Program-made: the position numbers and the translations under genes
Part shown: in pieces, positions 7,997 to 48,542 of the stretch
How the letters are laid out: the number at the start of each line of letters is the position of its first letter
Numbering within the stretch: position 1 is the stretch's first letter
Notes under the pieces: generated by a model
Told to the model about the DNA's origin: nothing
Database searches by the model: none
Seen by the model: the letters and a program-made list of their open reading frames with translations, nothing else
DNA from: Diplonema papillatum
Taxonomy: Eukaryota > Euglenozoa > Diplonemea > Diplonemida > Diplonemidae
DNA: 64,000 bases
Assembly: GCA_030068145.1 (NCBI GenBank)
Contig: JAPJBO010000180.1
Location: 1-64,000, forward strand
Direction: 5' to 3'

Positions 7997-8006
7997 TATA
8001 TAAATA
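7997..8006 (+). promoter_or_regulatory. TATA-box-like element of an S214 unit (representative)
   Basis: TATATAAATA lies 31-40 bp upstream of the ACAATGA start of the unit's micro-ORF. The element recurs once per unit, as TATATAAATA or TATACAAATA. Promoter activity is inferred from sequence alone. Confidence 0.35.
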
Positions 8007-8036
8007 TGCGGGTTAAGAATCTGTCCGTCTGTCACA

Positions 8037-24030: not shown

Positions 24031-24362
24031 TGACACATGAATGGTATCGTTTGGCTGAACAGGAAACTGTCCAAACCTGTCAAAGAATCCTGATCAATCA
24101 TCAGGCAAAGACAGTTGGATAAACAACAAAGACTGCCTGCGTCGGCCGCGCTTGCAGCGCGTTTCCGAGGAACACCACGAGGAGGTGCAGGTCAGATTTT
24201 TGTCCCTCATGTCAAAAACAAGCAATGAGCCATCGTCTGGACTTCGAAGCGGAGGATGATGAGGAATATCCTTTGTGTGACTCTTGATCCCTTTGAAGAG
24301 TTTCCTGCAGTTCACAGCGCCACCTTGCCAAAGGAGCTCTCAACAATGCGATGAGTGCCCCT
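24031..24362. repeat. Module E, copy 2, left half (interrupted by the hAT element)
   Basis: Matches 19,166-19,510 and 52,570-52,907 up to GATGAGTGCCCCT. There the match stops exactly at 24,362 and resumes at 48,543 with GTGCCCCTGATGTCGAAATGG. GTGCCCCT at 24,355-24,362 is the left copy of the 8-bp target duplication. Confidence 0.92.
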
Positions 24363-24445
24363 CAGGGTGGAACATAAGATCTGGGCCTCGGGGCCAAGGG
24401 CCAAGCAGGGGTTTTAGGTTTTTTTTGGGTGGACACCAGATTCTC
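24363..24445 (+). repeat. hAT terminal inverted repeat, left
   Basis: Begins CAGGGTGGAACATAAG and reaches GGTTTTTTTTGGGTGGACACC. The right end read inward has CAGCCTGGAAC and GGTTTTTTTTGGTGGCCTTACC at similar depth. The match is imperfect but collinear. Confidence 0.8.
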
Positions 24446-25567: not shown

Positions 25568-28500
25568 TCATTCGTCGGACCGGGACGAAGACGGGGACGA
25601 GGACGAGGACGAGGACGAGGAAAGGGAAGAGGAGGACGAACCGCAAGACGTAGAATCTTCCTCTGTCTCTTCTTCATCTTCTTCAACTTCTTCAACTTCT
25701 TCTTCTTCTTCAAATGCAGTCAACACTAAAACTGCCTTCTCGAAGAGAGTCTTTCCGTCAGCGGCAAACCTGACATTAACTGCCTCCAGTTTTTCCCACT
25801 TGGAATCTGGAGCCGGTTCTGTCTTCTTCCGGCTGTCACCAGCGGCCCGTCGACGTTTCTGCGCCCACCAAAGTCTACTTCCGGTCTCGATGAGCTCCCT
25901 TGCAGCAGCATCATCCCTCGGACCGTTTTTCACCAACATCAGCTCTGCACTGACGCTTGGCACTTTCGTCCGGTTGCGTACTGAGGGCAGTCGCGCCCGC
26001 ATCTGACCGAAGTCACGCTCTACGCCGGCGCTACTAGCGCACGTGCAGCAGATGGCAACTTGCACCACGCGCGGGACATTTTCTGTCATGTCCGCGTACG
26101 AGGCCAGTCGCTCCGACCAGAACTGCAATGGGTTCGGTGCGCCCGAACTCTTCTTGAAGGCTATGGCTGCAGCCTTTAGAGTCTGCCACTCCTGCAACAG
26201 ACTCTTTGGCGGTACGTCAGCAAAGGAGCACAGACTCTCCCACGCGTCATTCCTGAAGCCTGGTTGCCGTAGTTCCGCCTCTTTGCAGAGAACACAGCTT
26301 ACGACCAGGTTCGCAAGCACCACGTGTTCCGAAAGGACTACTTCCGGGACCATAAGTTTGGTTATGTCCTGGTGAATAGCCCGAAACCTTTTCGGAACGG
26401 TGTTGTCGATGGCCATTTTGCACAGTCGCATTTGAGTATTGCGAACGGCTCCTTCTATCTCGCAAGCCAGTCCTGCTTCAAGCTGGGCAACAAGCTGCGG
26501 GGAGGCAATTGTACGAAACAATTCGTGCAAATACTTCAGATCCGAAGCGAAGGAGGCTTTCTGCAAGCGGTCACAGAGCTTTCCTCTTTTCAGAAGCTTT
26601 ACCTCCATGTCTGCAGCTTGGCTTTTTTTTTTTGATTTCTTCGTCTTCGCCCGGCTGAAGAGTTCCCTGTCACTCAATACAGCCAGCCATCCCTCCCGCA
26701 TGCCAGGGGTGCAAGCGTTGGCGAAAGACCTCTCCCACTTCTTCATCCAACGAATGCGCCAGCTCGCGTCCGGCTTTGGCATCTTATGGCCCATCGCGTC
26801 CTCGAGAGCCCGGCGAAGAAGATTGCTTCCCCGAAAGATGCTGTTAATCTGGCGGAGCACAGACGTCATGTCTTTAAACGCTGGGCAGTCTAGCAAGATT
26901 TTCATCTTGACCTGCATTCTGTGTGCAGCGTCCATGCTCATCGCCAGAGACCGCCCAGCCGCCTTCCCCATCAACGCCGCGGCACCGTTGTCGCAACCTG
27001 TCATCGTCGATCCGTCGTCCGAGCTCCACCCATATACGTGACGAGGATGCAGGCTCATCTGCTTCAGCACTTCGTCTATGGCGGCAAAGGCTGCCTCTCC
27101 AGTTGCACCAAACTTCTTCTTTTTGTTCGTCTTCTTCGTGGCTGTCGGGGCGGATGTCTGCCCCTTAGCAGTTGAGCCCTTCGGAGCTGGCTTGGCAGCA
27201 GCTTTTCTGTTCGAGCTTTGCACTTTCGGGGTTGGTGCCGGCTTGGCAGCAACCTTCTCGCTCGACTTCGAACAGCGCGCTTTCGAGGTTGTCGTTGCTT
27301 GCCCCTTTGCAATTGTCGGCTTGACAGTGACCGCAGGCTTGTTCGCGGACGAGGGCTCCGACGCAGATGGAGGTGGCAAGGGTCCTCTGGCAGCGAAGAA
27401 CGCGGTGATGGGTTTGACGCCTAAAGCAGCTGCGACGGCAGACGGGGTTTGTACCGCCGCCTTCGGTGTCTTCGCCGTCGGTGGAGCAGCTGCGTTCTTC
27501 TGCTTTGGGATCCTCGTGCCCTTAAGCCTCGGTTTTCGTGCTGGGAGCGCGACGGCCGATACTAGGCCGACGAAAACTTCCTTCACCAGTAGTGGCGACG
27601 ACAAGTCTACCCACCGCAACCGGACGGCCAAGACTTCATCACCACAATGCGGCAACGAGGAACCGTCGACCACAACGAACAAAGGCGGTACGCACTTCGG
27701 TCCACGTGACAGTAGATCCTGTCGTAGCCGAAACAAGAGCAGTTTCGCCCACACGCCGATGAGCTCCCGGATGTCTCGTCGGAGCCCGTGCCTCTTTGTG
27801 ACGGCGGTTCCTTGCAGCTGCTCGCCCCACAATTGGTGAGCGATCTGGCGGTGGCTGAGACCACCCATGACACCGACATAGGCACGGGCATTGAGATTGT
27901 AGAGTGGTGTCTCAAGCCTTTCGTCTGTACGCAATGGCAAGATGCGGTCTTCGGTGTTTGAATGCCGCTCGGGCCGGGAGGGTACGCCCGCTACCGCAGT
28001 GCGGACGCTTCGAGCTTTCAACACCGTGAGCGCAGCGACGTGGCCACACTTCTTCAAGTGCTTCGTCCGCGACTTCTTGGCGGGCGGAGCCGACCAGTTC
28101 TGCTCTACCCCGAATGCGTATGCAGCCGCCTTAGCACTAGTCGGATAGGGGACGGCCTTCAGGAGGATAGCTGTTCTGCACACTTTGCAAAACGTTGTCT
28201 TCCCTTCCACATCGAAGCAGTCTTCTCCTGTCAACTCATACAGAGGACTCTGCGAAGCCGTTGGGTTGACGAATCTACCCTCTGATATCGTGAGCTCCTC
28301 TTGGCAACGAAGCTGGGACAGTTTGCAAAGTCGAACAACGAAACAGTGATCGCCCTTGAACACGCAGAAAGCTTTGGACCGGTCTTGCAGCTTGTCGACT
28401 TTCTCGAGGAGAGATGCGACCGAAAGGGCACCATCGATGTCCACGGCACTAAAACTGTGAAGGTTCAGCTTCTCCCGGAATTCGGTGAACGACTTCAACA

Positions 28501-31500
28501 AGGGAATGTAAGAGAGGGGGGTGAGACACTCCGTTGCTATGGCGTCGGCGTATGACTGTCTGTCCCGTTCGTCAACGATGAACTGACCGGCACGTGACCA
28601 CCACTCCGCCAGCATGGACGTGTTTGGGTTCGCAATAGGTCTTCCTTCCTGCAGTGCGTTCACAACGTAACCCACAACGTACGTGCTGGCATGCAGCCGA
28701 GGGTCGACAGCGGAGAACCCGTTATTGCCTGCAACGGCGCCGCGTTCACGTAAGCCATCAGCCACCGCTTTTTGCAATGCGCCGGGGCGCGAGTCGTACA
28801 CGTGAAATTCCCAACCCTTCAATGAAGGGCCAAATTCACGTTGGTCGTTGGAGCGGGTTGGATCGGATTTCAACGCTGTCTTCTGACTTTTCCGCGGAGG
28901 ACTTGTGTCAGGGTATGGGGGGCGGTCACCTGGACACAGGACTGTGGGTTCATCCTCTGCCTTTACACCCAGGCGGGCCCGGATCACCCCGAAACAGTCA
29001 GGACACGCACAACACGTGCATTCTGAGCAGCGCCAGCCGTCTCTGCAGTTCTTGCCACAGACGTTACATATCCACAGACTGTCATCCGGGCACTTTCGCT
29101 TCGCAGAAAAGCCTCTCAAACGGAAGTGGCCGTTGCATTCCAGACATCCGAACACCTTTTCTTCGGACGTGTTGGACTTTGCCTCAGGAAAAGGATGAAG
29201 CGAGTCTTCTGGACTGGCGATAATATCCTCCTCCATCGCGACGACGGTAAGAGGTAGCTGTAACTCGGACGGCAAGCACACGTACATGTACTGATCACAT
29301 GCCACATGGCCTGCTTCTGCGGAAATGCGCACGATGTTCCTCGCCGCAAATGTGGCAGTGTCGGATGGGGGACCTGTGAAAAGCAGGTGTAACAGCTGTG
29401 CGAAGTCCAGGTATCCCAACTTATTGGCAGCCGCGAATTTCTGCACAATGTTGGCACTTGACTGGTTCTCCGAAGCGTAGCTGAAAAACTCTGCTACGTC
29501 TCGGATCTGAGTCCTCGTTAACGCATGCGAATGGCAATGATGAGCTGCCACCGCACTGACCAACATGGACTCGCTGACGCTCGGACGTACGTCCAAGACC
29601 TCCACATCTACGACGGTCTCCAAGCGCTTTACCAGCTGATCGGCAGCTGCGCTTCTCCGGCATCCAATGGTGACCCGAACAGGTTTGGGTATCGGTACCG
29701 AAGTCGAGGTCAACAAGGTATTGTCGGGGTCTGGACTGATCACATTTTTCGATGCGACGGTTGTGCTAGATAGCACACTTTGGCGTCTGTCTGAAGCGTT
29801 GAGGAAGCGTGGCAGTACTGGAACGGCCAAAATCTCCACCGTCTCTTTTCCAGTGTCGGCGTCGATACTCGAGCGAGTCAACTGAGTGAAATTACGCTCG
29901 AGACCCTGGACGAGGGTCGGCTGCATGCGGGAGCTGCCTTGCAGAGACGGCATTCTCACGTAGATGAAGTGCCCGGTGCGAGACTTCATCTCTGCCATAG
30001 ACGGAACAAACACGATGTTGTGATTTGTTCGCCACGTCTCCTCACCTTTGAGTATGGCCCACAACTTCGCAAACGGCAGGTAACCAAGACCTCTTGTCGC
30101 CGCAAAGTTCCGCACATCACGGCAAGGAATGCCGGCACCCGAGATGGTATCGAGGGTCAAGCCGTAATCAGCAGCACATGCGTTTAATGCTGCATGTGCG
30201 ATGTCAGCAAGTTGGCACCGTTTCGTTGCCACAACACTTGCATATAAAGCGCACGTATTGCCCTGTTGCACGCTCTGAAAGCATGTCGCAGTGTCCCATG
30301 CCGAAGCCATGCACCGAGCCAGCTGCGAAGAGAAGTTATTTCCCCACTCTGGCAACGAGTCAACGACTGCGAACGTAACGTTCTGGTGCACCCGGCGAAG
30401 CATCACAACGTAGCCGTCTTCGCGGAAGCTTCGGACGCAAGTCTTCCATTCGACACACCTTGACTCTGCGTCATTGCGCATTACCCACTTTCCGTTTTCC
30501 TTCAGGAAAGCAACGTTGTGGCCACTGAGCAAGTCCCTTCCAAGATGCGTCACAAACCCAACAACCTCAAACTCGTCTTCTGGGGCCACGGTCACGGTCT
30601 GAGTGAGGGTCACGGGTGTGCACCTCTTCGCTGTCCCTTTCGCAGTCAAGGCGTACCGCTTCAGCATGACGAAAACGGTATCTTCCAATGTAACTTTGTC
30701 TGTTACATTTGTTGTGGAGTTTTGCTTGCACGCAGGACACGTATACTCTTCCAACAACGTCGGTAGAGTTGAAATGCAACCTTTGAGGTGCCATTCAAAG
30801 GTTCTCGCGAAACCGGAAGATCGTTCGAGCGCGATTTGAAGCTCCGTGACCGGTTCAGGAGTCACGCTTGCATGTGTACAGCTTGAGCAAGACTTCGTGC
30901 TCAAAAGCGTGTTTGCGAAGCGACCGTCGGTCTGCTGGCGAATCCTGGTCAGGATCTCGTGCGCATCATGCATCGCGTACTCCGTGCCTGCCGGGAACAT
31001 GACTTGCCGCAAGTCAAGAGCTCGTGTCTGAACTTCGGTGTCAGTCTTGTTTGACCGGTATGCCTCAACTGTCTTCCTAATTACGGCTGCCAAGGGGGTC
31101 GGAGGCTGGGTCTGATTGGTTAGCTGGTTCAAATAGCCAGTGTCCCTGATCAGCAGTTGGAGAATGGCATTGATGCAACACGTGTTCTTTGTGTTTGCAA
31201 TGCCCCTCCCGGCAGTGGCTTCAGGATCGTAGGACCCTGATTCATCAACGCCGGGGTAAACGGCAGAAGGCCTGTCTGTGGTAGCCCGACTTTCAGGGTT
31301 GTGGCTCGGCGACTTCTTCAACGCGGTAGCTGTAGCAGAACGCTGCGCACTGACACCCATCGAAGGGCGAACTGCTTCAGGCACCTCGATGTTAGGCGGA
31401 GTCCATGTGCGGGCTTCGGCATCGTTGGCAAGCTGCTCGTACGCGACCGAATACACCACAGTGGCAGCTGCAGCAGCAAGGTCCGGACTTGAAGCTGAAG

Positions 31501-33115
31501 AGTCTGAGGTCGACTTTGCCTTCGATGTGGATATGACATCGCGGGGCGGCGTCATCGCACCTGGTGTTGGTGCAGTCTTGGGCAGTGTATCGACAGGCGA
31601 GGAAGGGGTGCTCTGGGTGGACAGGGAAGCAGCCGTATTGGGGCTACCTGTATTCGAAGTTGGTGCGACGAAAGCAAATTCGGGAAGTGGCTCCGGTGAA
31701 AGGTTGCTTATGTGCACTGGCGACTCTGCTGTGCTGAGATAGCTTTGCAAAGCAGCAGGCAAGGTGAGAAGTCGAAGGCCGAGGAGGTGCTGAAAAATGG
31801 CAACCTGAGATGTACTCGTAGGCCCCTGTACAACTCGGTTCAGCGTCGCAGTAGGCGCGTCGAAAAGCCAGGCGTGACTATTAGTCAACTCGGCGCAAAG
31901 GCGTAACGAGTTCACTTCGTCGTCCGTGAAACGTTCAACACCACTTCCCTGCAAGGAACAGCCGGAAGGGGGCACAGCTTTGTAAACGGCTGTCTGCAAG
32001 TTCGTCCGGTCCGGGAACAACACCTCGAAACCCTCCACGATGCTCGAGACAGGAACGAACGAGCCTTCAAGCCGCATCCATTCGGCATCGAAGAAAGCGA
32101 CGAGGTCGACCGGACTTGTCGGCCGGACAGCGGTACAAGGAGTGGCTGATGCACCTGTCACACGAGCAGCATCGCCGTTCATCGATGGAGCATCGGTGGT
32201 CGGTGTTCTCAGCGCGCAGGCGGGTGCAGTCGGTGCAGGTGTTGCAGGTGCAGCCGGCGCGGATGCAGGTGCCGTCGGCGCAGCTGATCCACCACGATCG
32301 CATCCCGAGCTGGCACTGATCGAAATTTCGGACCCTGACACCTCCGTCAGCGGCAAAGTGAGCACACTTAGTACACTCGACACTTGGTCGACGGAAACAC
32401 TTCGCGAAGACGGCGGGCACATGGAAGCATCGCATGGCATCACGTCGTCAACTTGCACCAGTTCCACCTCTGGGATATCGAGAGGCAAGTCGGTTTGGGT
32501 CCCTACATCCCTTGCGCACACCAACTTTTCGGCATTCTCATGCAGTTTCGGTTGCCTTGTGGCTTTGTCCAGAGCATTGTGTAGGTGCCGCAGCTCCTCC
32601 TCTTGTCGATGTACCGTCGTCTTCAGCGCCGCCACAGCCTTCTCGAAATTCTCAAGTACTTCACCGACTCTTCCCGTTGCAGAGCCGCCGACACGGTCGG
32701 TGTCCAATGCGACAGGACTTGTGCGGCGTCTTTTGCACGGCGTTTCCGGCGAGCTCTGCGTTGTGCAGGGTAGCCGAAGGCTCTCCACCGACTGACGCAA
32801 CGCTGGTGATCGGTGAGCCACCAGTAGGAGGGCAGCGAGCTTGGCGGGGGCCGGCACGACAGAGGTCGTGACTGTCTCCCCTAGCACCGTCGACAGGCTG
32901 CTGCGCAGGAACTGATCGTCGCCCCGCAAGCTCCCGCAAAACCGGGTGCTCCACTCTTCGATTTCTGAGTGGCGGAGCTTCCTTCTTGAGAACGCCGACC
33001 CCGTCAGCTTCTGCCAAGTACTGCCCAACTTTGCAGGCAGAGACACAAGCCACGGATCGGTGTAATCGCCGAAGTTCAGTCCTGAGTTAAGACCTAACTC
33101 AACATTGTTTGGCAT
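25568..33115 (-). CDS. hAT transposase fused to a ubiquitin-specific protease (2,515 aa)
   Basis: One uninterrupted frame, starting at an ATG with A at -3. Domains in order: coiled coil (~150-187). Pro/Ser/Thr-rich linkers (~260-330, ~480-630). A USP/C19 domain (~636-908) has a Cys box with C646, a DAHE motif, two CxxC zinc pairs, a His box with H866 and a following N881-D882; all catalytic positions are present. Diverged repeated modules follow (~915-1060 and ~1140-1285), the first with NTC at C955 and GHF at H1049. A ZZ-like cysteine cluster lies at ~1332-1377 and a BED-like finger at ~1640-1692. The transposase core has D1817 (VVVDGSS) and D2033-D2034 (SSDDGSTM). At the usual CxxH it reads DAAH (H2065), so the Cys is replaced by Asp. 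The hATC dimerisation motif includes E2366. The third catalytic acid could not be assigned. The tail is Glu- and Ser-rich. Known hAT transposases are mostly 600-1,000 aa. The domain fusion is seen directly; deubiquitinase activity is inferred. Confidence 0.9.
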   Translation of the reverse strand: MPNNVELGLNSGLNFGDYTDPWLVSLPAKLGSTWQKLTGSAFSRRKLRHSEIEEWSTRFCGSLRGDDQFLRSSLSTVLGETVTTSVVPAPAKLAALLLVAHRSPALRQSVESLRLPCTTQSSPETPCKRRRTSPVALDTDRVGGSATGRVGEVLENFEKAVAALKTTVHRQEEELRHLHNALDKATRQPKLHENAEKLVCARDVGTQTDLPLDIPEVELVQVDDVMPCDASMCPPSSRSVSVDQVSSVLSVLTLPLTEVSGSEISISASSGCDRGGSAAPTAPASAPAAPATPAPTAPACALRTPTTDAPSMNGDAARVTGASATPCTAVRPTSPVDLVAFFDAEWMRLEGSFVPVSSIVEGFEVLFPDRTNLQTAVYKAVPPSGCSLQGSGVERFTDDEVNSLRLCAELTNSHAWLFDAPTATLNRVVQGPTSTSQVAIFQHLLGLRLLTLPAALQSYLSTAESPVHISNLSPEPLPEFAFVAPTSNTGSPNTAASLSTQSTPSSPVDTLPKTAPTPGAMTPPRDVISTSKAKSTSDSSASSPDLAAAAATVVYSVAYEQLANDAEARTWTPPNIEVPEAVRPSMGVSAQRSATATALKKSPSHNPESRATTDRPSAVYPGVDESGSYDPEATAGRGIANTKNTCCINAILQLLIRDTGYLNQLTNQTQPPTPLAAVIRKTVEAYRSNKTDTEVQTRALDLRQVMFPAGTEYAMHDAHEILTRIRQQTDGRFANTLLSTKSCSSCTHASVTPEPVTELQIALERSSGFARTFEWHLKGCISTLPTLLEEYTCPACKQNSTTNVTDKVTLEDTVFVMLKRYALTAKGTAKRCTPVTLTQTVTVAPEDEFEVVGFVTHLGRDLLSGHNVAFLKENGKWVMRNDAESRCVEWKTCVRSFREDGYVVMLRRVHQNVTFAVVDSLPEWGNNFSSQLARCMASAWDTATCFQSVQQGNTCALYASVVATKRCQLADIAHAALNACAADYGLTLDTISGAGIPCRDVRNFAATRGLGYLPFAKLWAILKGEETWRTNHNIVFVPSMAEMKSRTGHFIYVRMPSLQGSSRMQPTLVQGLERNFTQLTRSSIDADTGKETVEILAVPVLPRFLNASDRRQSVLSSTTVASKNVISPDPDNTLLTSTSVPIPKPVRVTIGCRRSAAADQLVKRLETVVDVEVLDVRPSVSESMLVSAVAAHHCHSHALTRTQIRDVAEFFSYASENQSSANIVQKFAAANKLGYLDFAQLLHLLFTGPPSDTATFAARNIVRISAEAGHVACDQYMYVCLPSELQLPLTVVAMEEDIIASPEDSLHPFPEAKSNTSEEKVFGCLECNGHFRLRGFSAKRKCPDDSLWICNVCGKNCRDGWRCSECTCCACPDCFGVIRARLGVKAEDEPTVLCPGDRPPYPDTSPPRKSQKTALKSDPTRSNDQREFGPSLKGWEFHVYDSRPGALQKAVADGLRERGAVAGNNGFSAVDPRLHASTYVVGYVVNALQEGRPIANPNTSMLAEWWSRAGQFIVDERDRQSYADAIATECLTPLSYIPLLKSFTEFREKLNLHSFSAVDIDGALSVASLLEKVDKLQDRSKAFCVFKGDHCFVVRLCKLSQLRCQEELTISEGRFVNPTASQSPLYELTGEDCFDVEGKTTFCKVCRTAILLKAVPYPTSAKAAAYAFGVEQNWSAPPAKKSRTKHLKKCGHVAALTVLKARSVRTAVAGVPSRPERHSNTEDRILPLRTDERLETPLYNLNARAYVGVMGGLSHRQIAHQLWGEQLQGTAVTKRHGLRRDIRELIGVWAKLLLFRLRQDLLSRGPKCVPPLFVVVDGSSLPHCGDEVLAVRLRWVDLSSPLLVKEVFVGLVSAVALPARKPRLKGTRIPKQKNAAAPPTAKTPKAAVQTPSAVAAALGVKPITAFFAARGPLPPPSASEPSSANKPAVTVKPTIAKGQATTTSKARCSKSSEKVAAKPAPTPKVQSSNRKAAAKPAPKGSTAKGQTSAPTATKKTNKKKKFGATGEAAFAAIDEVLKQMSLHPRHVYGWSSDDGSTMTGCDNGAAALMGKAAGRSLAMSMDAAHRMQVKMKILLDCPAFKDMTSVLRQINSIFRGSNLLRRALEDAMGHKMPKPDASWRIRWMKKWERSFANACTPGMREGWLAVLSDRELFSRAKTKKSKKKSQAADMEVKLLKRGKLCDRLQKASFASDLKYLHELFRTIASPQLVAQLEAGLACEIEGAVRNTQMRLCKMAIDNTVPKRFRAIHQDITKLMVPEVVLSEHVVLANLVVSCVLCKEAELRQPGFRNDAWESLCSFADVPPKSLLQEWQTLKAAAIAFKKSSGAPNPLQFWSERLASYADMTENVPRVVQVAICCTCASSAGVERDFGQMRARLPSVRNRTKVPSVSAELMLVKNGPRDDAAARELIETGSRLWWAQKRRRAAGDSRKKTEPAPDSKWEKLEAVNVRFAADGKTLFEKAVLVLTAFEEEEEVEEVEEDEEETEEDSTSCGSSSSSLSSSSSSSSSPSSSRSDE

Positions 33116-33367: not shown

Positions 33368-35266
33368 CCGACTCAGCGGACTCTCTCTAAATTGCTGGGG
33401 GCAGTGAAGAGGTTTCAGCTTCTTACGTTCGTAAGAAAATGCATGCAACCGTCAGGCTGGACCCAAAGTTTGGACACCGGAGCCCGGGCACGGAGTTCTG
33501 GGCGCACGCTGATTCGCGGCTGACATTTGCTGTTTACGAGGAAACGGGAAGAGATGCGTAGTTTTGTTGAGAAGTGGCTTTACGTTGGCGGACAAATAGT
33601 TTCGAGCGGCTGCTTAAAAGTGCGCTTCTTGACTTCCCGAGACTGGACAACTGGTTTCTGTGAGATTTTTGTTTATTGCGGAAATTAACTTCGCCGAACT
33701 TTACGGTTTCCCGAACTATAACTACTGCCTCCAGTTTCGCCCCGCGCCGGCCTTTAGCCGAGCACGTACTTCTTGCTGCGGTAACTGCCGGACGTTTTCC
33801 GTCATTTTCTGGTGGAAGAAGTCCTGGCAGGCGGCCCGAAGCAGTCCGGTCCGGTCCTCGGACTCCGGGTTTGCGGGCGGCGGTTATTTTTTTGGAGCGC
33901 GGGACACTGGATTTGCCATTTTGGTACAGCGGGGTTGCCTACGTCCGGTTGCTTTCCCGGAGCGGTAGTCCCAATGCATGCTTCTTCAGCACAGTGAACG
34001 CCACCTTCACTGTGACCTGGCTGGCCTGCTTTACAGGGCAGGTCCGACCAGGCGAAGAAACTCTACCACGACATTTTAAAAATTGTCTGAAGACCACGCG
34101 CTGTCGCATTTTTCCTCTCCTTTCCTTTTTGTTCTCCAAAGAAGACAGGATAGAAGGAAAAGGTGCCTCATCTTTCGCAATTTTTTTTTTTTTCGGGACT
34201 GACTTCCCAGCGGAGTGACGATTTAACGAGACATGGCTGGAAAGCCAGCGGTCAGTTGGGAGACTGGGCAAGCGAATCCGTGTCAACGGCGGGTGAGTAG
34301 CGACACCCCCCGCAAGCGAGCCGAACACAACGGGCGAAAGGAGAGAAGACAGAAGAAAGGACTCCAGCAAGGACACAAACCCGCACGGCAACCACGCCAC
34401 TGCAGAGCAGAAAGACGAGTTGCGGCTATACACGGTTTGCATGATCACTTCGCGCTCACAGTACCACACTTACTGCTCTTTCTTCTTTTCACGCACCGAA
34501 CACACGCGAAGGTACACACTGAGAGAAATACAGAAGACAGAAGAAAGGATTCCAGCAAGGACACAAGCCCGCACGACAACCACGCCACTGCAGAGCAGAC
34601 AGACGAGTTGCGGCTACACACGGCTTGCATGATCTCTTCGCGCCAAAAGAACCTTTGTTCGCTTCGCTCTTCCGTCCTTTCTCAACAACCGAACGCACAC
34701 AGCTACAGAAAAACGGGGCCTTTGCCTCACGGAGACCCTGCCTGACATTAGGGAAGGCCAACCGACACATCATTCGATTCAAGAATCACTGTCGGTCCCG
34801 AGTGTCAGGTCAATCTGTACCCTCACGAGGACAGAACCCCTCACACGTAACTCGTCTGACGAGTGCCCCGCGTGTGGGGGGATGCGTAACGAGCTCAGGG
34901 GCCGAAACGGGGGTCTCCGACGTGATTAGCAGCATACTACAGAAGGCTGCCAAAGCATCTTTTCAAAACACACCAACATGTCTACAGGAACCAGCGAAAG
35001 AACCTCTCCCACGGCAAGAACAATCAGCCCAGCTGGCCTCTTCCTCTCCTTTCCTTTTTGTTCTCCAAAGAAGACAGGATAGAAGGAAAAGGTGCCTCAT
35101 CTAAAAAAAAATAATAAAATCCTCACTCCTATGCTTGTGTCTGTCACTCTCGTCCTCCGCTCCTGCTCTGCTTGCCGCGCGCAGTATAGTTGGAGCAAAA
35201 GGTGAAGCCAGAAAGCTGTTAATCTTGCTGCTGACCACATGAAGTGGTGCAAGTTTCTTTTCCTAC
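33368..35266. other. hAT internal non-coding region with local duplications
   Basis: No ATG-initiated ORF here resembles a gene. A ~118-bp segment (GAAGACAGAAGAAAGGA through TTGCATGATC) occurs at about 34,343-34,462 and again at 34,531-34,648, a 188-bp period. A 62-bp segment (TTCCTCTCCTTTCCTTTTTG to CTCATCT) occurs at 34,112-34,173 and at 35,041-35,102; the second copy is followed by an A-rich AAAAAAAAATAATAAAA. A perfect 9-bp stem (CACAGTGAA/TTCACTGTG) lies at 33,990-34,014. Confidence 0.7.
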
Positions 35267-35282
35267 AAAAAAAAAAGCGAAT
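35267..35282 (+). repeat. Left target duplication of the nested LINE
   Basis: AAAAAAAAAAGCGAAT here is identical to 42,874-42,889, directly after the LINE poly-A. A 16-bp duplication starting in an A-run is what target-primed reverse transcription predicts. Only the last six bases are independent of the A-tract. Confidence 0.6.
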
Positions 35283-37484
35283 GTCCGCGATGACGGTCTG
35301 ACGGGGGACCGGGAGAAACTAAAACTGTACCCTGGCTGGGAAACACCGCTGCTCCCGCTGAGAGTCTCAGCGTACCTGGAAACTGACGTGGTAGCAGAGA
35401 TCGCGGCGTTAAACCCTGTGAAACTATCACAGCGCCTGCTTGACTGCAGATACCCGACTGAAAAAGTGACAGACGCCTGGGGTGCACGGGTATGGGACGG
35501 CAGATGTGAGGTGTGTGTCACAGTGCCAGAGGAAGACTCAGAATCCCTCCTCCGCTGTAGCGGCGCAGATGGGGTCTTTCTGTCACCGATGTCGCCAATG
35601 CCCCTCAAGGTGATTCAGCTGGGCACCTGTACCCTGGAACGCGCAAGGCAGATAGCAACACTGGCCGGGGATGCCCATCGTGGACTAGAAGAGATTGGAA
35701 GAGGGTACGGGCTACGAGTTGGAAACGGCTCATACGCAGCGGTCAGACACGAGCTAGCCTCGCAGGGACTGCTACCACCAGAACAAGGGACATTCCTTGT
35801 GCAAGGTATCCCGTGTGGTACAAACGCCGCAACGCTGCGTTCCAACTTGCAGGCACTCGGATGGATAGTCACCCCGCTTTACAAAAGGACTGGGCCGCGA
35901 CGCCTGGTTAGCTGGGTTGTGCTCTCAGAATGGTTACCTGGTAAGGACACGTACACGACGAGGACGGGGGTAAACCTAAGGATCCGCAGGATTGAGGATG
36001 ACCCGACCCCCCCGGAAAAGCACACACCCGGGCCCTCCCTCTCCAAGGAATACCGTTCGGTGAACGCAGCAGGAGGAAAGAGGAAAGACCCTATCTCCAA
36101 GACTCTCCTAACCCGCAGAGAGTTCCAAGAAAGATTCCCAAGGGGCCAAGAGGCTGAGCTCATGTGGAAGGTGGCGGGCGAGTACCCGGGGTCACAGGAG
36201 CAGCCCGATATGGAAGTCGATGACGGACAACCCCTGTTTGGAGGAAAAAGGGTCGATGACGAATCGACGGACGAAGCAAACGTGGCTGCAAAGACGGAGT
36301 CGGTCCCCACTTGTCCGCCGGTCCCGACACCACCTAGTGACCTGGGTGCAAGGATGGCCAGCCTTGAGGCCACACTGCAGGCTGTCCTCACTCACTCTGC
36401 CTCCCTCCAACCTGACACTGCGGTACAACTGCTGAGGGCGGAGGTGCAAGCCCTAAGACAAAAAACCTGCCAGCCCTCGGACGAACTAAACCTACTCCGA
36501 GCAGAAATCGCCAGCCTCAGACAACACAGGCCCCAACCACCTACAAACGAACAACCTGAGGTGGCTCGGTTGCGGGCAGAAAACCACGCACTGAAGCAGG
36601 GACTCAGTCAAGCTGCGGCAGCGCCGGCACAGCAGCAGACAAATGTGGTCAACCCCCAATCGCACCCGCCAAGCCCGGAGACGACGGAACGCCAAAATCC
36701 GCAATCCCCGCCGGAGAACGCAGCGAAGTGTGGCAAACAGTCGGTGCTCGGGACCTTACAAACGGATGCTTCACGCAGTGTGGAAGGCCAACGTGCTGAG
36801 GTTGGAAAATCGGCTAGTAACCTGGACAGGCGCTCCGCATCCGTGGTCCGGGGCGAAGTAGTACCTCGTCGTCGGCGACGAAACTCAGATGAGAACGTCA
36901 GGGAAGGGCGCCGGGGGGAAACCCCCCCAAGCGACGCGGAGTCAGCGCCACGAAGGGAGAGGGACTCAGCTGCTTGCCGGCCTCGGGGACCACCAGTCTG
37001 TCCTGGAACGAGTATCGACGACCCTCGAACTATGACCCACGTAGCGCAAGCCACCGAGGCCCCCCCGGGCCCCTCGTACCAGCCGACAAACCACTGTAGT
37101 GAAAACCGGGACGAACAGCAGGCGGTCTGCACGTTGGACGCGACACACTGCCCCCAAGGCATAGTGCGGGAGCCGCACGTACCTGTCGCTGCGACCGAGC
37201 AGTCTGTATCCTCGCAGGTTGTGGAGAAACAGGCAGTGGGTGACGGAGAGATGTGTAAACCGGGAAACAAATGCGACGAGTCGGAAACGGCCGTGATTCA
37301 GCGCCAGAAGTTCCAGCCATACTCGTCAGTGAGAGCGCAGACCCCAACGCCGAGGCGCTGCGAATCGCCACACCCGTGTGGTAGGGGGGCCCCCAGCACG
37401 CCTACCGGCAGGCTCCCCGGCGGCTCTAGAGCCTCGCCGCACACAGGTAAGGGAAGGAACATGCCCCATTCCTTTCGTTCTTAG
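35283..37484 (+). CDS. LINE ORF1, N-terminally truncated nucleic-acid-binding protein
   Basis: The frame is open from just after an in-frame stop at 35,232, but the segment before 35,283 is probably flanking DNA. The first in-frame ATG comes only after about 115 codons. Near residue 190 counted from 35,244 is an RRM-like stretch (FLVQGIPCGT, LGWIVTPLYKR, SWVVLSEWLPG). It is followed by a predicted coiled coil with heptad-like LRAE repeats (ARMASLEATLQ, LLRAEVQALRQ, LNLLRAEIASLRQ, VARLRAENHALKQ). The C-terminal third is Pro/Arg/Ser-rich and disordered, without zinc knuckles. RRM plus coiled coil is a common LINE ORF1 architecture for binding and packaging the RNA. It overlaps ORF2 by 107 nt. 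Confidence 0.75.
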   Translation, partial: VRDDGLTGDREKLKLYPGWETPLLPLRVSAYLETDVVAEIAALNPVKLSQRLLDCRYPTEKVTDAWGARVWDGRCEVCVTVPEEDSESLLRCSGADGVFLSPMSPMPLKVIQLGTCTLERARQIATLAGDAHRGLEEIGRGYGLRVGNGSYAAVRHELASQGLLPPEQGTFLVQGIPCGTNAATLRSNLQALGWIVTPLYKRTGPRRLVSWVVLSEWLPGKDTYTTRTGVNLRIRRIEDDPTPPEKHTPGPSLSKEYRSVNAAGGKRKDPISKTLLTRREFQERFPRGQEAELMWKVAGEYPGSQEQPDMEVDDGQPLFGGKRVDDESTDEANVAAKTESVPTCPPVPTPPSDLGARMASLEATLQAVLTHSASLQPDTAVQLLRAEVQALRQKTCQPSDELNLLRAEIASLRQHRPQPPTNEQPEVARLRAENHALKQGLSQAAAAPAQQQTNVVNPQSHPPSPETTERQNPQSPPENAAKCGKQSVLGTLQTDASRSVEGQRAEVGKSASNLDRRSASVVRGEVVPRRRRRNSDENVREGRRGETPPSDAESAPRRERDSAACRPRGPPVCPGTSIDDPRTMTHVAQATEAPPGPSYQPTNHCSENRDEQQAVCTLDATHCPQGIVREPHVPVAATEQSVSSQVVEKQAVGDGEMCKPGNKCDESETAVIQRQKFQPYSSVRAQTPTPRRCESPHPCGRGAPSTPTGRLPGGSRASPHTGKGRNMPHSFRS

Positions 37485-40400
37485 GGACGAAGGTAGTCCT
37501 ACAGCAGGCCCGCTCGGTCCGAAAAACGCGCGGGTCGGCACCGAGCAGCGCAGCCTACGCCGAAAACGAGGCCCGCCACTCGGGAAACAAAACGGCGTGA
37601 GACGGGAGAAGACAGGCCTTCACAGTCCGGAGTCGACGCTGCGAGTAATCAGCTTCAACTGCAGATCATTCAAGGCAAGGGAATACCCGCCAAACTCGCA
37701 GGACGAGATCAGCCGATTGGTCGCCAGACACCAGCCAGACATACTCCTCTTGCAGGAAACATGGCTGAGCGACAAATCGCTGCCTCCGGTGCTCCCCGGT
37801 TACCGTGCGCACAGACGTGACAGGCCAGGGGGTGGGGGCCATGGTGGAGTCCTGACGTTCGTGAAGTCGGACCTAGCGGCCACACAGATCCCCGTGGGCC
37901 CCTTCGGTGGTGATGGAGCAATGGAAAGCATTGCCGTTGCTGTCGAGCGGGCGGGCCTCCCCCCAATCCGAGTCTACAACGTATACAGGCCCCCCCAGCC
38001 AACTGCCTCTGAGTCGGGGAAGTTAAACATGCGGCCCTTCCCGATGGATGATGGGGTGGTAGTTGCCGGCGACCTAAATGTCCACCACGCTGACTGGTCG
38101 CAGGGGGTTGGCAACCCTGGGGGAGTAGTCCTACGCGACTGGCTACTTCGTAACTCGGCCAGAACATGGAATGACCCTGCCTCGCCGACTATGTGCCACA
38201 GGAAGCATGCAAGGCCCTCCTCCCCCGATATCGTCGTAGCGTCTGAGACCCCTGACTTTGTGACGTGCTGGAAAGTCCTAGAGCCCTGGGGCTCCGACCA
38301 CAGGCCGGTTTACTTTGAGCTGCCAAGAGGCTACCGGCAAGCTAGGGCCAAACTCCAGAAAGGCTACTCCTGGAAAAAAGCCGACTGGGGAAAAATGAAG
38401 GCGTATCTGGACGAGCAAAGCGAGAAGCTTCTTGCGGGTCGATATGGGCGACATGACATCATGGGGAAGGTCACGTCACTCCTGCAAGATGGCCTGCGAA
38501 AGTTTGTCCCTACGTCCTCGTCGGAGCGCGTGCACAGAGCCTGGTGGACCCCTGAACTGAGCCGTCTGGAGACGGAAAAGGCAGCTTTGCATGCGGCGGC
38601 CTCGGCCGACCCCCTGGATAGGGAGAAGGCAAACGCCTACGAGAAGGCGAAAACCACCTTCTCAACAGAGGCGACGAAGGCAAAGGCTGGCTACTGGGGC
38701 GGTATAGTTGCGAACATCAACGCGTTTACCGACCTGGGCCTCCTGTACCGCCAGATACGCAGGATTGACGGGCGATCGCAACGATACTCCGTCCCGCCGA
38801 TCCGGGTTGGCAACGTTTACGTGGTGGACGCCGCGGAAAAGGCAGACATCTTCGGTGACCACCTCGCAACGTTATGCCGCCGGGAAGGCCCAAGGGCAGT
38901 AAGGCCTGCTTACATACATCCGAGCGGAGACTTCGAGGAAGCGGTAATCCCCTTCACAGAAGGTGAGCTGGACAGAGCGATCGCAGAACTCCGTGACACC
39001 ACGTCACTTGACCCTGACGGCATCTGCTCGTCCTTGCTGTCCCATATTGGCGACGCCACGAAGGGACTGCTCCTAGAGATGTACAACATCTCGTGGACTA
39101 CGGCAGCGGTACCCCAGAGCTGGAGAGATGCCCATGTCATTCCTGTCCCAAAGCCTGACAAGGACCATAGCCGCCCTGAGGGTTACAGGCCGATTTCCCT
39201 GACGAGCGTGATTTCCAAACTGATGGAGGTCATGATTAAGAACCGCCTGTCCTTTATCACTGAGAGCCCCAAGTTCCCCCATGTACGCCCTTTCTGCGAC
39301 TCGCAGGGTGGCTTTCGTAAAGGTAGGGGCACTGAAGAACAGGTCCTAAGCATGGTAACCGCAATGGACCTGGCACGCAGCAACGGGTACTACTCGTGTC
39401 TATTGTCATTTGACTTAGCAAATGCATTTGACACGGTCGACCATGACTACCTGCTAGCAGTCATGGAGAAACGTGGCGTGCCCCCTCGCTTCACCCGTTG
39501 GATTCGTGCCTTCCTGCGAGGACGGACGGCTGCGTACAAGGTCGACGGGAAAGTAGGGAAGAAAGTCTCGTTGAGCCGCGGCGTTCCCCAGGGCACAGTC
39601 CTCGGCCCCATCCTCTTCCTGTTTTGCATCGACGGGCTGGGCGTAAAGCTTGAGGAAATCAGCAGTGCGCTTGGAAACACAAAGGCCGGACCAAACTACC
39701 TGACCCCGTCACTGTTTGCAGATGACGTGGGGGTTGTCGTCTCGGCCTTGACGGTTGCCGAACTCGAAGTGAAGGCACAGATGGTGGTGGACGCAGTCGA
39801 GAAATGGGTTGCTGGCGCCCGGATGAAACTGGCGCATCACAAGACAGAGGCCGTGCTCATCTGTCCACCGGGCAAGAGTACGGTACCCCCACGGTTGCGT
39901 TTCCGCAATGCTAGGTCGTCCATTCGCATTCCTGGATCCCAACTCCCAGCCTGGATAAGACGCTACAGCCATACTTTTGTGGCAAATGAAGCGCAATACA
40001 GAGTACATGAGGGCAAGCGGGTGGAAGCGGTTAACGGCCACTCTGGTTTCTCCAACGATGACATACATGCCATACATGGGGAAGTGCGCAACCAGTGGGT
40101 CGTCCTTGATCTCACGGAGCCTGTCCGCTGGGTGAAACAGACGAAGTTACTCGGCCTCATCATCGATGACGAGCTGTCTTTTCACGCACACGCTGAGAGG
40201 GCCATAAAGCGCATGGCACAGAGAGGGAACCTCCTGCGCCACCTGTCGGGGAAAGCGTGGGGGTGCAGCACCGCTACGCTGCGCAGCCTGTACCTAACCT
40301 ACGTGATCCCCTCTGTGACGTACTGTTTGTCGGTCTACGGGCCCTACTTGCTCAAATCGTCGCGCGCCTACCTCAGATCCTTTGAGCGACTCCACACGAG

Positions 40401-42216
40401 CTCGCTTGCGCACATCCTGGGATGCCGCAAAGGCGTTTCTGACTTTGTGGCGACCCGGGAGTCAGGTATTCCGCCGCTGGAGGTGTACGTGGACGTCAGA
40501 CTCGGCAGCCTCTGGGAGAGAATGTTGCCCCGCAAGCACCTCTGGCCGGACGTCTTCAGACTGCCGTCCACACTGAGTCGACGATACACAGAGCTGACGC
40601 TGAAAGCCGGCACCCGCAACCTGCCGAGGGAACTCTGGGTGCACAACCCCTTCGCCCCTTGGCACCCACGTCCGGCGGTAGACATCAACCCCTCCCTGCC
40701 CGGCGGAAAAAAGGCAGCAGCACCTTCCGAGAAGAAACGTTCTGTCGAGAGCCAACTGCGTAAGCTCCCAGCCCCGGACTGTACGGTGTGGACCGATGGA
40801 TCCGTACGCAGGGTACAGCCGCCGCCTCCACAGCCCGGTTCTCAAGCAGAACGCAACATATGGCCATGGTCCATGAAATGCGTAGACACCTGGACCTGGG
40901 GCGGAGCTGCAGCCTTGATTGAGTGCGCGCCCACGATCTCCCTTGCAAACGACCATGGCTTCGAGATCCGCCAGCGAGACGCCGTCCGTTCGACCACCCT
41001 CTCACACGCCGCTGGACGCTTTCCCTCCAGCCTCAAGGCGGAGACGCTCGCATTGGCCGCGGCCCTCAGGGCCCTCCTTAGGCTCCTCACGCCCACCACC
41101 GCGCCCCGAACGGTCTTACTGCTGTCAGACTCGCAGTCGCTATTGCAACGTTTGGCGAGCGGCCCACAGACGCAGAAGCAACCCCTCATGGTACACATCT
41201 GGACCATGCTCCGTATCCTCACACGGTTAGGATACACAGCAACGCTCCAGTTTGTGTACGGACACTGTGGCCTGCGCGGAAACGAGGTGACCGACGGACT
41301 GGCGAGGCACGCCACTCTCCAACACCACAGAGAGCTGTCGCGGTGCCGGGGTAACCCCACAAGGGAGTGTCCGATCGCGGCGGAGGATGCGGTGGCGCGC
41401 TACAAGGCGTACCTGTCCGCCGTGTCCACCGAGGCCATGGCGCGAGCGGCGTTTGAAAGGGCGACCAAACACCGCATCACACTGCCCTACGCCCGGATCG
41501 TGGATGGGCGGAACATCAAGCGCCCAGCTCACCTCACGACGCGCGCTGAGCGGGTGATCCGGCAGTTCAGGACTGGTCACCACCCGCTAGTGATGACCAT
41601 GTACGCCCCGGACTACGCCGATCTCGACAAGCAGGAAAGGCGGCGTGCCTATCGCAGCTGTGCACTGTGCGGCAAGCACCGCCCGAACGTGCTCGAACAC
41701 CTGCTCGTTGAATGCGACGATGCGGCTAGCCAGCCACACCGCAGGAGCATGTGGTCGAAGGCTCTGGTCGGCAAGGGGCCCGAGGCCGCGTCACGCCTGC
41801 CGCCCGGAGCTACCAATGCCGACAAGCTGTGGCACGTCCTTTTCAAGTTTCCCGAGCTCGCCCTCGAGTACTTGCAGGATGCGGGTTTAATCCCTCGGTT
41901 CGTTAACGTGAGACCAGATTGTGGGGAGGCGCTGACCCCTTCCGGCTCAATCTGTGACGGAAGGTCTGTGTGGAGCTCACAGACTGTCACCTCGCAGATT
42001 AGTGCCCCACAGAGCACTCCGGCTAGCAGACAGCCGGTAAGCCTCAGCCGTGAACCAGTGGACTCGGAAGCCAGCGAGCCATACCGCAATTTGCACGACG
42101 ACGGCCCGCCTCTCCGCACCAGCAGGTCTCCCACGCCCGACTTGGAGTCGGTGGCGGCTGGTGGGATCTGCTACACAGACGCCATCAGCAGTGACGGCTC
42201 AAACGACTGGGCCTGA
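37378..42216 (+). CDS. LINE ORF2: endonuclease, reverse transcriptase, RNase H, zinc knuckle (up to 1,612 aa)
   Basis: Positions count from 37,378. Apurinic-type endonuclease: FNCRSF (N94), LLLQETW (E127), GDLNVHHADW (~232) and SDHRP (~305). Reverse transcriptase: SFDLANAFD (D679), GVPQGTVLGP and FADD (D782-D783). RNase H: VWTDGS (D1140), KAETLAL, LLSDSQS and GHCGLRGNEVTD. A CxxCx9Hx4C knuckle lies near 1429-1445. All catalytic motifs look intact. The frame begins at GTG, and its first ATG is codon 182, inside the endonuclease and after two of its catalytic motifs. Expression must therefore use a +1 shift from ORF1 in the 107-nt overlap, a non-AUG start, or another mechanism. The presence of RNase H separates it from L1-type elements. 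Confidence 0.93.
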   Translation: MVGGPPARLPAGSPAALEPRRTQVREGTCPIPFVLRDEGSPTAGPLGPKNARVGTEQRSLRRKRGPPLGKQNGVRREKTGLHSPESTLRVISFNCRSFKAREYPPNSQDEISRLVARHQPDILLLQETWLSDKSLPPVLPGYRAHRRDRPGGGGHGGVLTFVKSDLAATQIPVGPFGGDGAMESIAVAVERAGLPPIRVYNVYRPPQPTASESGKLNMRPFPMDDGVVVAGDLNVHHADWSQGVGNPGGVVLRDWLLRNSARTWNDPASPTMCHRKHARPSSPDIVVASETPDFVTCWKVLEPWGSDHRPVYFELPRGYRQARAKLQKGYSWKKADWGKMKAYLDEQSEKLLAGRYGRHDIMGKVTSLLQDGLRKFVPTSSSERVHRAWWTPELSRLETEKAALHAAASADPLDREKANAYEKAKTTFSTEATKAKAGYWGGIVANINAFTDLGLLYRQIRRIDGRSQRYSVPPIRVGNVYVVDAAEKADIFGDHLATLCRREGPRAVRPAYIHPSGDFEEAVIPFTEGELDRAIAELRDTTSLDPDGICSSLLSHIGDATKGLLLEMYNISWTTAAVPQSWRDAHVIPVPKPDKDHSRPEGYRPISLTSVISKLMEVMIKNRLSFITESPKFPHVRPFCDSQGGFRKGRGTEEQVLSMVTAMDLARSNGYYSCLLSFDLANAFDTVDHDYLLAVMEKRGVPPRFTRWIRAFLRGRTAAYKVDGKVGKKVSLSRGVPQGTVLGPILFLFCIDGLGVKLEEISSALGNTKAGPNYLTPSLFADDVGVVVSALTVAELEVKAQMVVDAVEKWVAGARMKLAHHKTEAVLICPPGKSTVPPRLRFRNARSSIRIPGSQLPAWIRRYSHTFVANEAQYRVHEGKRVEAVNGHSGFSNDDIHAIHGEVRNQWVVLDLTEPVRWVKQTKLLGLIIDDELSFHAHAERAIKRMAQRGNLLRHLSGKAWGCSTATLRSLYLTYVIPSVTYCLSVYGPYLLKSSRAYLRSFERLHTSSLAHILGCRKGVSDFVATRESGIPPLEVYVDVRLGSLWERMLPRKHLWPDVFRLPSTLSRRYTELTLKAGTRNLPRELWVHNPFAPWHPRPAVDINPSLPGGKKAAAPSEKKRSVESQLRKLPAPDCTVWTDGSVRRVQPPPPQPGSQAERNIWPWSMKCVDTWTWGGAAALIECAPTISLANDHGFEIRQRDAVRSTTLSHAAGRFPSSLKAETLALAAALRALLRLLTPTTAPRTVLLLSDSQSLLQRLASGPQTQKQPLMVHIWTMLRILTRLGYTATLQFVYGHCGLRGNEVTDGLARHATLQHHRELSRCRGNPTRECPIAAEDAVARYKAYLSAVSTEAMARAAFERATKHRITLPYARIVDGRNIKRPAHLTTRAERVIRQFRTGHHPLVMTMYAPDYADLDKQERRRAYRSCALCGKHRPNVLEHLLVECDDAASQPHRRSMWSKALVGKGPEAASRLPPGATNADKLWHVLFKFPELALEYLQDAGLIPRFVNVRPDCGEALTPSGSICDGRSVWSSQTVTSQISAPQSTPASRQPVSLSREPVDSEASEPYRNLHDDGPPLRTSRSPTPDLESVAAGGICYTDAISSDGSNDWA

Positions 42217-42868
42217 CGACGCCGCATCGTTCAACTCCACTGTTATCGAACCCAACGACACCACGCAACGTGCTGCTTCAAGACGGCAACGTAACATCAC
42301 CTACAAACCCACGGCCTTCAAGAAGTGCTGCCAGACAACGCCGATGAACTCGCAGCTGCCGTGTGCGTGTCCTTGAGCTTCCACATTGTCGCCTCGGCCA
42401 AAGCCAGCGTGTGCACAAACAAACGCCGTCGAACTCAGCTCTGCAAAAAACGACTGTTGCACTTGCTACCAAGCACCGCAAACCGCTGCGCCTCCAAAGG
42501 CAGCAAGAATATAAACTGAAGCACAAACTACAAATGCACCGACAACAGCAAAAGTGTTCCATAAACTGTGCACTGGCTACCAAGGCACCACCAACTGTTG
42601 CACCTACATCAAACAAAAAAACATACAAGACAAACCCAGAGAGTTCGGGTACAGCACGAAGCGACCCACTGTAACCCTGGGTAAACGTTAAAAAGTTACA
42701 CAATGAAACAAGAGACAACGAAATCACCCCACCCTAGCCTAGCAAACAACCTAGCCCCCAACAAACTAGCCTGTGCCTTGTGCAGCACACAGTGTCTAAC
42801 CTGCGTGGCATGTTACTTGACAGTAACACGGCCCAGTAAAGCCGTTTCCCGCCGTGTCGGGTGTCAAC
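42217..42868 (+). other. LINE 3' untranslated region
   Basis: A-rich on the plus strand, many stops, ends at the poly-A. It has GTAAACGTTAAAAAGTTACACAATG near 42,680. No conserved ORF is seen. Confidence 0.6.
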
Positions 42869-42888
42869 AAAAAAAAAAAAAAAGCGAA

Positions 42889-42906
42889 TTTTTTTTTTTT
42901 TTTTTT
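42889..42906. repeat. T18 tract after the LINE target duplication
   Basis: A15-GCGAA-T18 forms a near-perfect A/T hairpin. AGCGAAT occurs on both sides of the T-run (42,883-42,889 and 42,910-42,916). The A-tract and T-tract may have been adjacent in the pre-insertion target. Confidence 0.7.
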
Positions 42907-42922
42907 AGTAGCGAATGAACGT

Positions 42923-46000: not shown

Positions 46001-46494
46001 CGCGTGATCTCGGCCAGAACACGCTTGTGCCTCCACCTGACTAAAATGGAAAAACGTCCAGCTGCCGGGATTGAACCCGCGTCTACAGCACCAAATTGCA
46101 TCCAACAAAATTGCGACCGGCCAGAATACGCTTGTGCGACCAGCTCGCACCCGGCGGCACAAGCGTGTTCTCGGCAAGAACACACGTGTGCTGCCACAAT
46201 TTGGACGGAGACGTCAAAGTTCTGTCACTTTGAGAGGTGCACACGCGTGATCTCGGCCAGAACACGCTTGTGCCTCCACCTGACTAAAATGGAAAAACGT
46301 CCAGCTGCCGGGCAAAATGCATCCAACAAAATTGCGACCGGCCAGAATACGCTTGTGCGACCAGCTCGCACCCGGCGGCACAAGCGTGTTCTCGGCAAGA
46401 ACACACGTGTGCTGCCACAATTTGGACGGAGACGTCAAAGTTCTGTCACTTTGAGAGGTGCACACGCGTGATCTCGGCCAGAACACGCTTGTGC
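43058..46494. repeat. 243-bp satellite array, about 14 units with 221-bp deletion variants
   Basis: GTGATCTCGGCCAGAACACG recurs at spacings of 244, 221, 243, 221, 243, 244, 243, 244, 243, 221, 243, 235, 243 and 221 bp. The 221-bp units lack ATTGAACCCGCGTCTACAGCAC, which contains an inverted B-box-like GGTTCAATCCC. One unit lacks CAGCTGCC. Within each unit, GGCACAAGCGTGTTCT and near-identical versions occur once forward and twice inverted. All ORFs here are repeat-derived. Confidence 0.95.
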
Positions 46495-47930: not shown

Positions 47931-48345
47931 TTATTTCGACCCAAGGCGTTACATGTCGAATTCGACTCCAAAGTAGCGTGACACGAGCGTGACATGTCAA
48001 ATATGACTGTAAATTAGCGTTACCCGAGCGTTACCTGCCCAATTCGACCGTAAAGTAGCGTGACACGAGCGTGACATGTCAAATTTGACTGTAACGTAGC
48101 GTTACATGAGCGTGACATACCAAATATGACTGTAAATTAGCGTTACCCGAGCGTTACCTGCCCAATTCGACCGTAAAGTAGCGTGACACGAGCGTTACAT
48201 GTCGAATTCGACTCCAAAGTAGCGTGACACGAGCGTGACATGTCAAATTCGACTGTAACGTAGCGTTACATGAGCGTGACATACCAAGTATGGCTGTAAA
48301 CTAGCGTTACACGAGCGTTACCTGCCCAATTCGACCGTAAAGTAC
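47931..48345 (+). repeat. 41-bp subterminal repeat array, about 10 units
   Basis: Units such as GTAGCGTGACACGAGCGTGA-CATGTCAAATTTGACTGTAAC alternate CGTGACA/CGTTACA and CAAATTTGACTGTAA/CAATTCGACCGTAAA variants. The diverged counterpart at the left end lies in opposite orientation. Such arrays near hAT ends are the usual place for transposase binding sites; that role is inferred. Confidence 0.85.
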
Positions 48346-48459: not shown

Positions 48460-48542
48460 AGGCTGGTAAGGCCACCAAAAAAAACCCCCAAAAAGGACCT
48501 CACCGTAGGCGGGGGTCAAGGGCCAAGCAAAGTTCCAGGCTG
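48460..48542 (-). repeat. hAT terminal inverted repeat, right
   Basis: The reverse complement begins CAGCCTGGAACTTTGC and continues to GGGGGTTTTTTTTGGTGG. It ends at 48,542, immediately before GTGCCCCT (48,543-48,550). Confidence 0.8.

Follow-up and report, generated by a model that had tools for sequence, protein, structure and literature searches.

The window analyzed here, 64,000 nucleotides from contig JAPJBO010000180.1 of the diplonemid Diplonema papillatum, is occupied between positions 24363 and 48542 by a hAT-like transposon, an insertion of 24,180 bp that, minus a nested LINE, measures about 15.6 kb and contains a single long ORF along with three tandem arrays (Table 1). The ORF at 25568-33115, the only long one of the element outside the nested LINE, lies on the minus strand, begins with ATG and encodes 2515 residues, at the position where a first-pass annotation of this DNA had put it. 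Given its base composition, this frame would contain about 96 stops by chance, and none is found (probability of none, about 2e-43).

Table 1. Coordinates of the element, its protein domains and its surroundings, given as positions in the window.
Feature	Positions	Strand	Remarks
Single 2515-aa ORF	25568..33115	-	N-terminal region, USP, (N/K)TCA...GHF domain + degenerate repeat, Cys-rich patch, transposase, Ser/acidic tail
USP (peptidase C19, Pfam UCH)	30407..31207	-	Residues 637-903, with C646, H866, D882
(N/K)TCA...GHF domain	29948..30262	-	Residues 952-1056; common to relatives
Degenerate second copy of TCA...GHF domain	29267..29590	-	Residues ~1176-1283; without the Cys and GHF
Putative hAT-like transposase core	25916..27904	-	Residues ~1738-2400; D1817, D2033/2034, H2065, RW, E2366
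Left target-site duplication	24355..24362	.	GTGCCCCT; single copy at empty paralogous site ~52900-52907
Left terminus	24363..24373	+	CAGGGTGGAAC; common left border of the family
Right terminus	48532..48542	-	CAGCCTGGAAC on the minus strand; 9/11 bases as in the left terminus
Right target-site duplication	48543..48550	.	GTGCCCCT
Uninterrupted paralogous copy of the host repeat hit by the insertion	52449..53335	+	Empty-site control
Nested non-LTR retrotransposon (LINE)	34174..42918	+	Endonuclease + RT, ORF 37378-42216; outside the element proper
243-bp tandem array	43062..46495	+	Inside the element; common to other copies
62-bp tandem array	46489..47687	+	Inside the element
41-bp tandem array	47946..48344	+	Inside the element

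The only Pfam domain of the ORF at E<=1 is UCH (PF00443), which matches residues 637-903 over nearly the whole profile (positions 1-251 of 254) with an E value of 7e-13 and a score of 49 bits (cut-off, 23.9). The C19 domain that had been predicted for residues 636-908 is thus borne out, together with each of the residues named for it, all of them in one frame: the catalytic residues C646 (within KNTCC, 643-647), H866 (within GHN) and D882, the DAHE motif (717-720) and both intact CxxC pairs, CSSC at 743-746 and CPAC at 793-796. Two zinc-binding CxxC pairs are a feature of many USPs. Aligned with L029, L030, L031, L032 and part of P0013, five further USPs of this study, the domain shows no variation at the Cys, the His, the Asp or the D, H and E of DAHE. 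Of its four CxxC cysteines, three are likewise constant, and the fourth (796) is unaligned in L031. Single-sequence searches of the window USP against solved USPs gave weak matches (the best to USP36, E = 0.0055), and therefore the domain is divergent. We infer that it is catalytically active. In the stretch that separates the degenerate repeat from the transposase, residues 1324-1374 (positions 28994-29146) form a cysteine-rich patch with several CxxC motifs, which may bind zinc.

Borders, copies and transposase of the element

The left border at 24363 was found by flank alignment, and the left terminus begins the window copy as well as the 10 other copies with a left end available. The right border was set within the window, where the host repeat at 23904-24362 resumes at 48543-48973. 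The two ends form short imperfect terminal inverted repeats starting with CAG (CAGGGTGGAAC/CAGCCTGGAAC). Target-site duplications of 8 bp flank all three copies with both ends read, and they are G/C-rich: GTGCCCCT in the window, where the empty site fixes the length, GTGGGGGT at C270, and GGGGGGGG at C226, whose length is uncertain because it lies inside a G run.

In 271 Mb of genome (2910 contigs), the ORF has at least 44 matching pieces, among them six copies of the whole ORF including that of the window (7545-7548 of 7548 bases), all with 100% identity, which argues for recent movement. Judged from its ends and copies, the window element is a recently mobile hAT-like DNA transposon, and it is probably autonomous. 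The nested LINE, with Pfam matches to an endonuclease (PF03372, 1.8e-21) and an RT (PF00078, 4.3e-32), is replaced in the C72 copy by 149 other bases between 34173 and 42919. One further copy (L022 at C592) is a mosaic that matches the window element at 93-95% identity in its left part and at about 99% in the remainder, as if two subfamilies had recombined. The window also contains two large satellite arrays, one of 21 units of 214 bp (7780-12274) and one of 17 units of 201 bp (58030-61431), and partial copies of them occur at other places in it.

The C-terminal 1000 residues of the window protein are 37, 36 and 39% identical to those of three relatives, P0002, P0003 and P0004, respectively. 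Invariant in all four are D1817 (VVVD), D2033/D2034 and G2035 (SDDG), H2065 (DAAH), W2119, the RW at 2122-2123 and E2366 (GVERDFG). We take the order VVVD, SDDG, DAAH, RW and C-terminal ERDFG, combined with CAG termini, to be characteristic of hAT elements, and from these motifs, the target-site duplications and the termini, we infer a transposase of the hAT type. The first-pass annotation had described a hAT catalytic core and a hATC dimerization motif about 900 residues past the USP. The core finds support in the motifs invariant in the relatives and in the 8-bp duplications. No Pfam hAT or hATC profile matched the whole ORF at E<=1. Nor was there a Pfam match to an N-terminal BED zinc finger in the ORF at E<=1, or to any Pfam family when residues 1680-2440 were searched alone at E<=10, a search limited by HMMER filters that drop most matches above 0.1. 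A profile search of the PDB with the transposase alignment returned nothing credible, and an AlphaFold2 model of the transposase built from four sequences was poor (mean pLDDT, 39.6). Because no hAT profile matched and the model was poor, we use the label hAT-like. It is imaginable that the transposase belongs to another superfamily with 8-bp duplications (e.g., P-like) or to an undescribed one, in which case the fusion would stand and only the label would change. The missing Pfam and PDB matches and the low confidence of the fold model fit this possibility, and so do the target duplications, since G/C-rich sites are not known as the usual hAT target. However, the motif order and the CAG termini fit hAT, and the low-confidence model places strands and helices near the acidic residues in an order resembling RNase H, interrupted by a long insertion of helices. 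A non-hAT transposase therefore appears doubtful to us.

USPs in related and unrelated elements

A second family of hAT-like elements bears on the question of whether the two halves of the ORF belong together. The protein record of P0003 (DIPPA_16902) starts just after the TCA motif, downstream of where a USP would lie, and we had considered it a USP-less relative. At its locus, C104, the open genomic frame is 2011 aa long, and we examined two pieces of the upstream DNA, 421 and 401 bases in length and 419 bases apart. One (L035) encodes a His box, TGHF ... HNDS, in a fragment whose UCH match (E = 0.0038) is below the cut-off; the other (L036) encodes a Cys box, GSCCFASSVIQML, in the same frame. 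P0003 was dropped as a USP-less relative on account of these two boxes. After the His box comes the TCA motif, and the sequence is collinear with that of P0001, the window protein (E = 3e-10). As read from these boxes, the order USP, TCA...GHF domain and transposase is kept in two families whose transposases are 36-39% identical. Since in the second family, too, the middle domain is preceded by USP Cys and His boxes, the join of USP and transposase is not a matter of chance, and we reject a fortuitous joining of two frames on the evidence of the stop-free frame, the six identical copies and the collinearity at C104. The single relative read without a USP is P0002 (1727 aa, from a Logan assembly), in which no UCH match was found in the roughly 490 residues scanned before the NTCA motif. 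Hence, the USP is not indispensable to the family and was gained or lost. Of the doubt raised at first pass, that homologues might lack the USP and the frame be joined by chance, the first part applies to P0002; the second family carries USP boxes at the same place.

The middle domain is present in USP-less P0002 as well. Its TCA motif reads NTCA in P0001 and P0002 and KTCA in P0014, and its GHF part is also found in P0003. The domain has no Pfam match and no credible PDB match by profile search; a Cys and a His at this spacing suggest a second, papain-like protease as a possibility.

USPs are also found in unrelated elements of the same genome. With the window USP as query, the best 124 of 626 candidates comprised 14 matches of the same family, all of them 100% identical and without stops, and 110 others at 26-31% identity. 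Among the latter, 100 had no stop and many lay in long frames recurring at several loci. Four of the 110 were read. Three of them, L029, L030 and L032, proved to be retroelements that combine an RT-like region with a UCH domain (2.8e-18 to 3e-15), which in all three ORFs, each read to its stop, forms the very C-terminus. Penelope-like elements (PLEs) with an N-terminal GIY-YIG domain are known. GIY-YIG (PF01541) is above the cut-off in L029 (4.6e-06) and L030 (7.7e-06), L032 and a further element, L034, having been fetched without that part, and RVT_1 is below the cut-off in the PLE candidates (E = 0.04-0.08); the assignment of L029, L030, L032 and L034 to the PLEs rests on sequence motifs and on the pairing with GIY-YIG. 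PLEs with a C-terminal USP (L029, L030, L032 and L034) stand in tandem at C510 (period, ~5.7 kb) and C2819 (~5.85 kb), and the protein of L030 matches DIPPA_16664 of D. papillatum (100% identity over the matched 71%). Among the matches listed, a USP match follows on the same strand, no more than 400 bases 3', for 62 of 81 PLE RTs, which leaves 19 without one, and the proportion for full-length RT matches is 43 of 54; conversely, 62 of the 110 other USP matches are preceded by an RT match and 48 are not. Many of these matches are fragments, so that a missing partner may be real or simply unscored. The fourth sequence read, L031 (ORF 3-2870; one locus among the matches listed), has a UCH domain (6.2e-15) and a Pif1-type helicase C-terminal match below the cut-off and is possibly a Helitron; one stretch of it looks OTU-like to the eye and has no Pfam match.

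In a Pfam UCH search of the genome, 149 of 935 candidates were scored, and we take the 34 first-ranking matches (>87 bits) to be mostly cellular genes. Many of the other 115 matches listed have identical scores and recurring frame lengths, and one of them, C248, when read in part, revealed an RT 38% identical to that of L030. The 14 control genomes of this search gave no UCH match, a result without bearing on other eukaryotes. A further RT-USP fusion, P0013, comes from a EukProt transcriptome labeled Rhum, which we read as Rhynchopus humris, a diplonemid; it combines UCH (2.5e-21) with an RT below the Pfam cut-off and is 33% identical to the L030 ORF over 58% of the query. The six USPs, with host USPs not among them, form a tree with long branches. 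In viral contigs, the patterns used detected no relative of P0001, A3 or A6. On the public record, the PLE protein P0012 bears the name "Ubiquitin carboxyl-terminal hydrolase 26" and the PLE protein P0006 is entered as hypothetical. The former entry is a warning for annotation, and USP gene counts in the D. papillatum genome are likely inflated by transposons.

The three PLE USPs compared are under purifying selection. For the pairs of L029, L030 and L032 (NG86), dN/dS was 0.097-0.120 in the USP (279-281 codons), 0.056-0.071 in the RT and 0.28-0.88 in the short linker, values that are rough because dS of RT and USP is high (1.3-2.1, near saturation). The window family gives no dN/dS because its 14 USP matches are identical, and constraint on the USP of hAT-like elements would instead be argued from the retention of the Cys and His boxes in the second family.

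Possible role of the USP and comparison with known systems

We propose, with a probability of roughly 0.6, that host ubiquitination restrains the proteins of the element and that the USP, fused in cis, counters it. The USP would be active and would owe its retention to a ubiquitin-based restraint of mobile-element proteins by the host. Located on the same polypeptide, it may deubiquitinate the transposase itself or its partners at the donor or target DNA, and the transposase complex would thereby escape degradation. Since PLEs with a USP share no transposition chemistry with a DNA transposon, a general anti-ubiquitin role is favored over a role in a DDE step. The presence of the USP on a hAT-like transposon and on unrelated retrotransposons of one genome suggests that genome parasites in this diplonemid gain by blocking the host ubiquitin system. 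In a wider and more tentative proposal, to which we would give somewhat less than even odds, the diplonemid USPs are a shared weapon of unrelated elements (hAT-like, several PLE lineages and possibly a Helitron), a C19 module taken up or exchanged against ubiquitin restraint by the host. If so, the genome holds far more transposon USPs than cellular ones.

An active USP might also have its substrates in chromatin, such as ubiquitinated histones where the element inserts, or among DNA repair factors, instead of protecting its own protein. Such substrates are common for USPs, and the fusion in cis would carry the enzyme to the target DNA. Moreover, activation of repair factors during transposition has been suggested for Ulp1 and OTU domains where Bao et al. 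discuss them (2010, PMC2836005). However, PLEs use a different route and still carry a USP, which general protection explains at least as well, and we regard a chromatin or repair role as rather unlikely. A self-processing role, in which either the USP or the TCA...GHF domain cuts a long polyprotein as retroelement proteases do, could be supposed from the great length of the ORF, its several linkers and the second Cys/His-type domain adjoining the USP. Yet USPs cut after ubiquitin-like folds, and the ORF contains no ubiquitin-like Pfam domain; in addition, the very C-terminus of L029, L030 and L032 would be a poor site for a processing enzyme, all of which makes self-processing quite improbable. 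The USP could, finally, be a passenger, a host sequence caught by chance and without a role. P0002 does without it, and PLEs transduce host DNA, according to PMC6431247, but this reading is already disfavored, and we consider it highly improbable in view of the purifying selection in three pairs of PLE USPs, the catalytic boxes in two divergent hAT-like families, the fusion in the transcript read as that of another diplonemid and the 100 stop-free matches among the 110 others listed.

Like the hAT elements Hermes, Ac and hobo, the window element has 8-bp target-site duplications, short terminal repeats starting with CAG, the order D-D-H-RW-E and an ERDFG motif. It differs from them in the lack of a BED or hATC profile match, in its size (~15.6 kb, with a protein of 2515 aa), in its G/C-rich targets and in the USP and TCA...GHF domains. 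The PLEs of D. papillatum resemble known PLEs with an N-terminal GIY-YIG in uniting GIY-YIG and RT in one ORF (L029 and L030) and in their tandem copies, but they have a C-terminal USP added. The closest precedent is Trichomonas vaginalis XP_001314237.1, a single example protein in which, by its description in Bao et al. (2010, PMC2836005), an IS5-like transposase_11 is joined to a peptidase C19; it shares with the window protein the combination of a USP-type domain and a DNA transposase, but its transposase is of an unrelated type. DNA transposons with Ulp1 or OTU domains, discussed in the same paper, likewise have a ubiquitin or SUMO protease attached, but Ulp1 and OTU domains are not C19 USPs. 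Helitrons and Helentrons encode VTD or OTU deubiquitinases, VTD being of proven activity and proposed to prevent the degradation of transposition proteins in the account given by PMC9741609; by that account, they too are transposons encoding a deubiquitinase, though of other families and in another transposon class. For D. papillatum itself (published assembly, ~280 Mb), the main text of PMC10161547 names retrovirus-like, LINE-1, SLACS, R2, jockey types, TATE, MULE and Helitron, and the words ubiquitin, Penelope and hAT do not occur in it. The first-pass annotation knew of no described hAT with an in-frame C19 USP. We found neither a hAT or hAT-like element nor a PLE with a USP described in the literature searched, which included few subscription papers or bioRxiv preprints, and the first-pass statement needs to be qualified by the C19 domain on the IS5-like transposase, as that case is described in PMC2836005.

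Ubiquitin and SUMO proteases thus occur on several transposon types, and in a single protist lineage, one class of these enzymes is seen in many copies on two kinds of element with unrelated mechanisms. Should the domains prove active, the idea of ubiquitin as a general eukaryotic brake on mobile elements becomes testable. In sum, deubiquitinase domains on transposons were already known (OTU, ULP1, VTD and one IS5-like C19 case), and what is new here is the combination of a USP with a hAT-like element and with PLEs, and its unusually wide spread.
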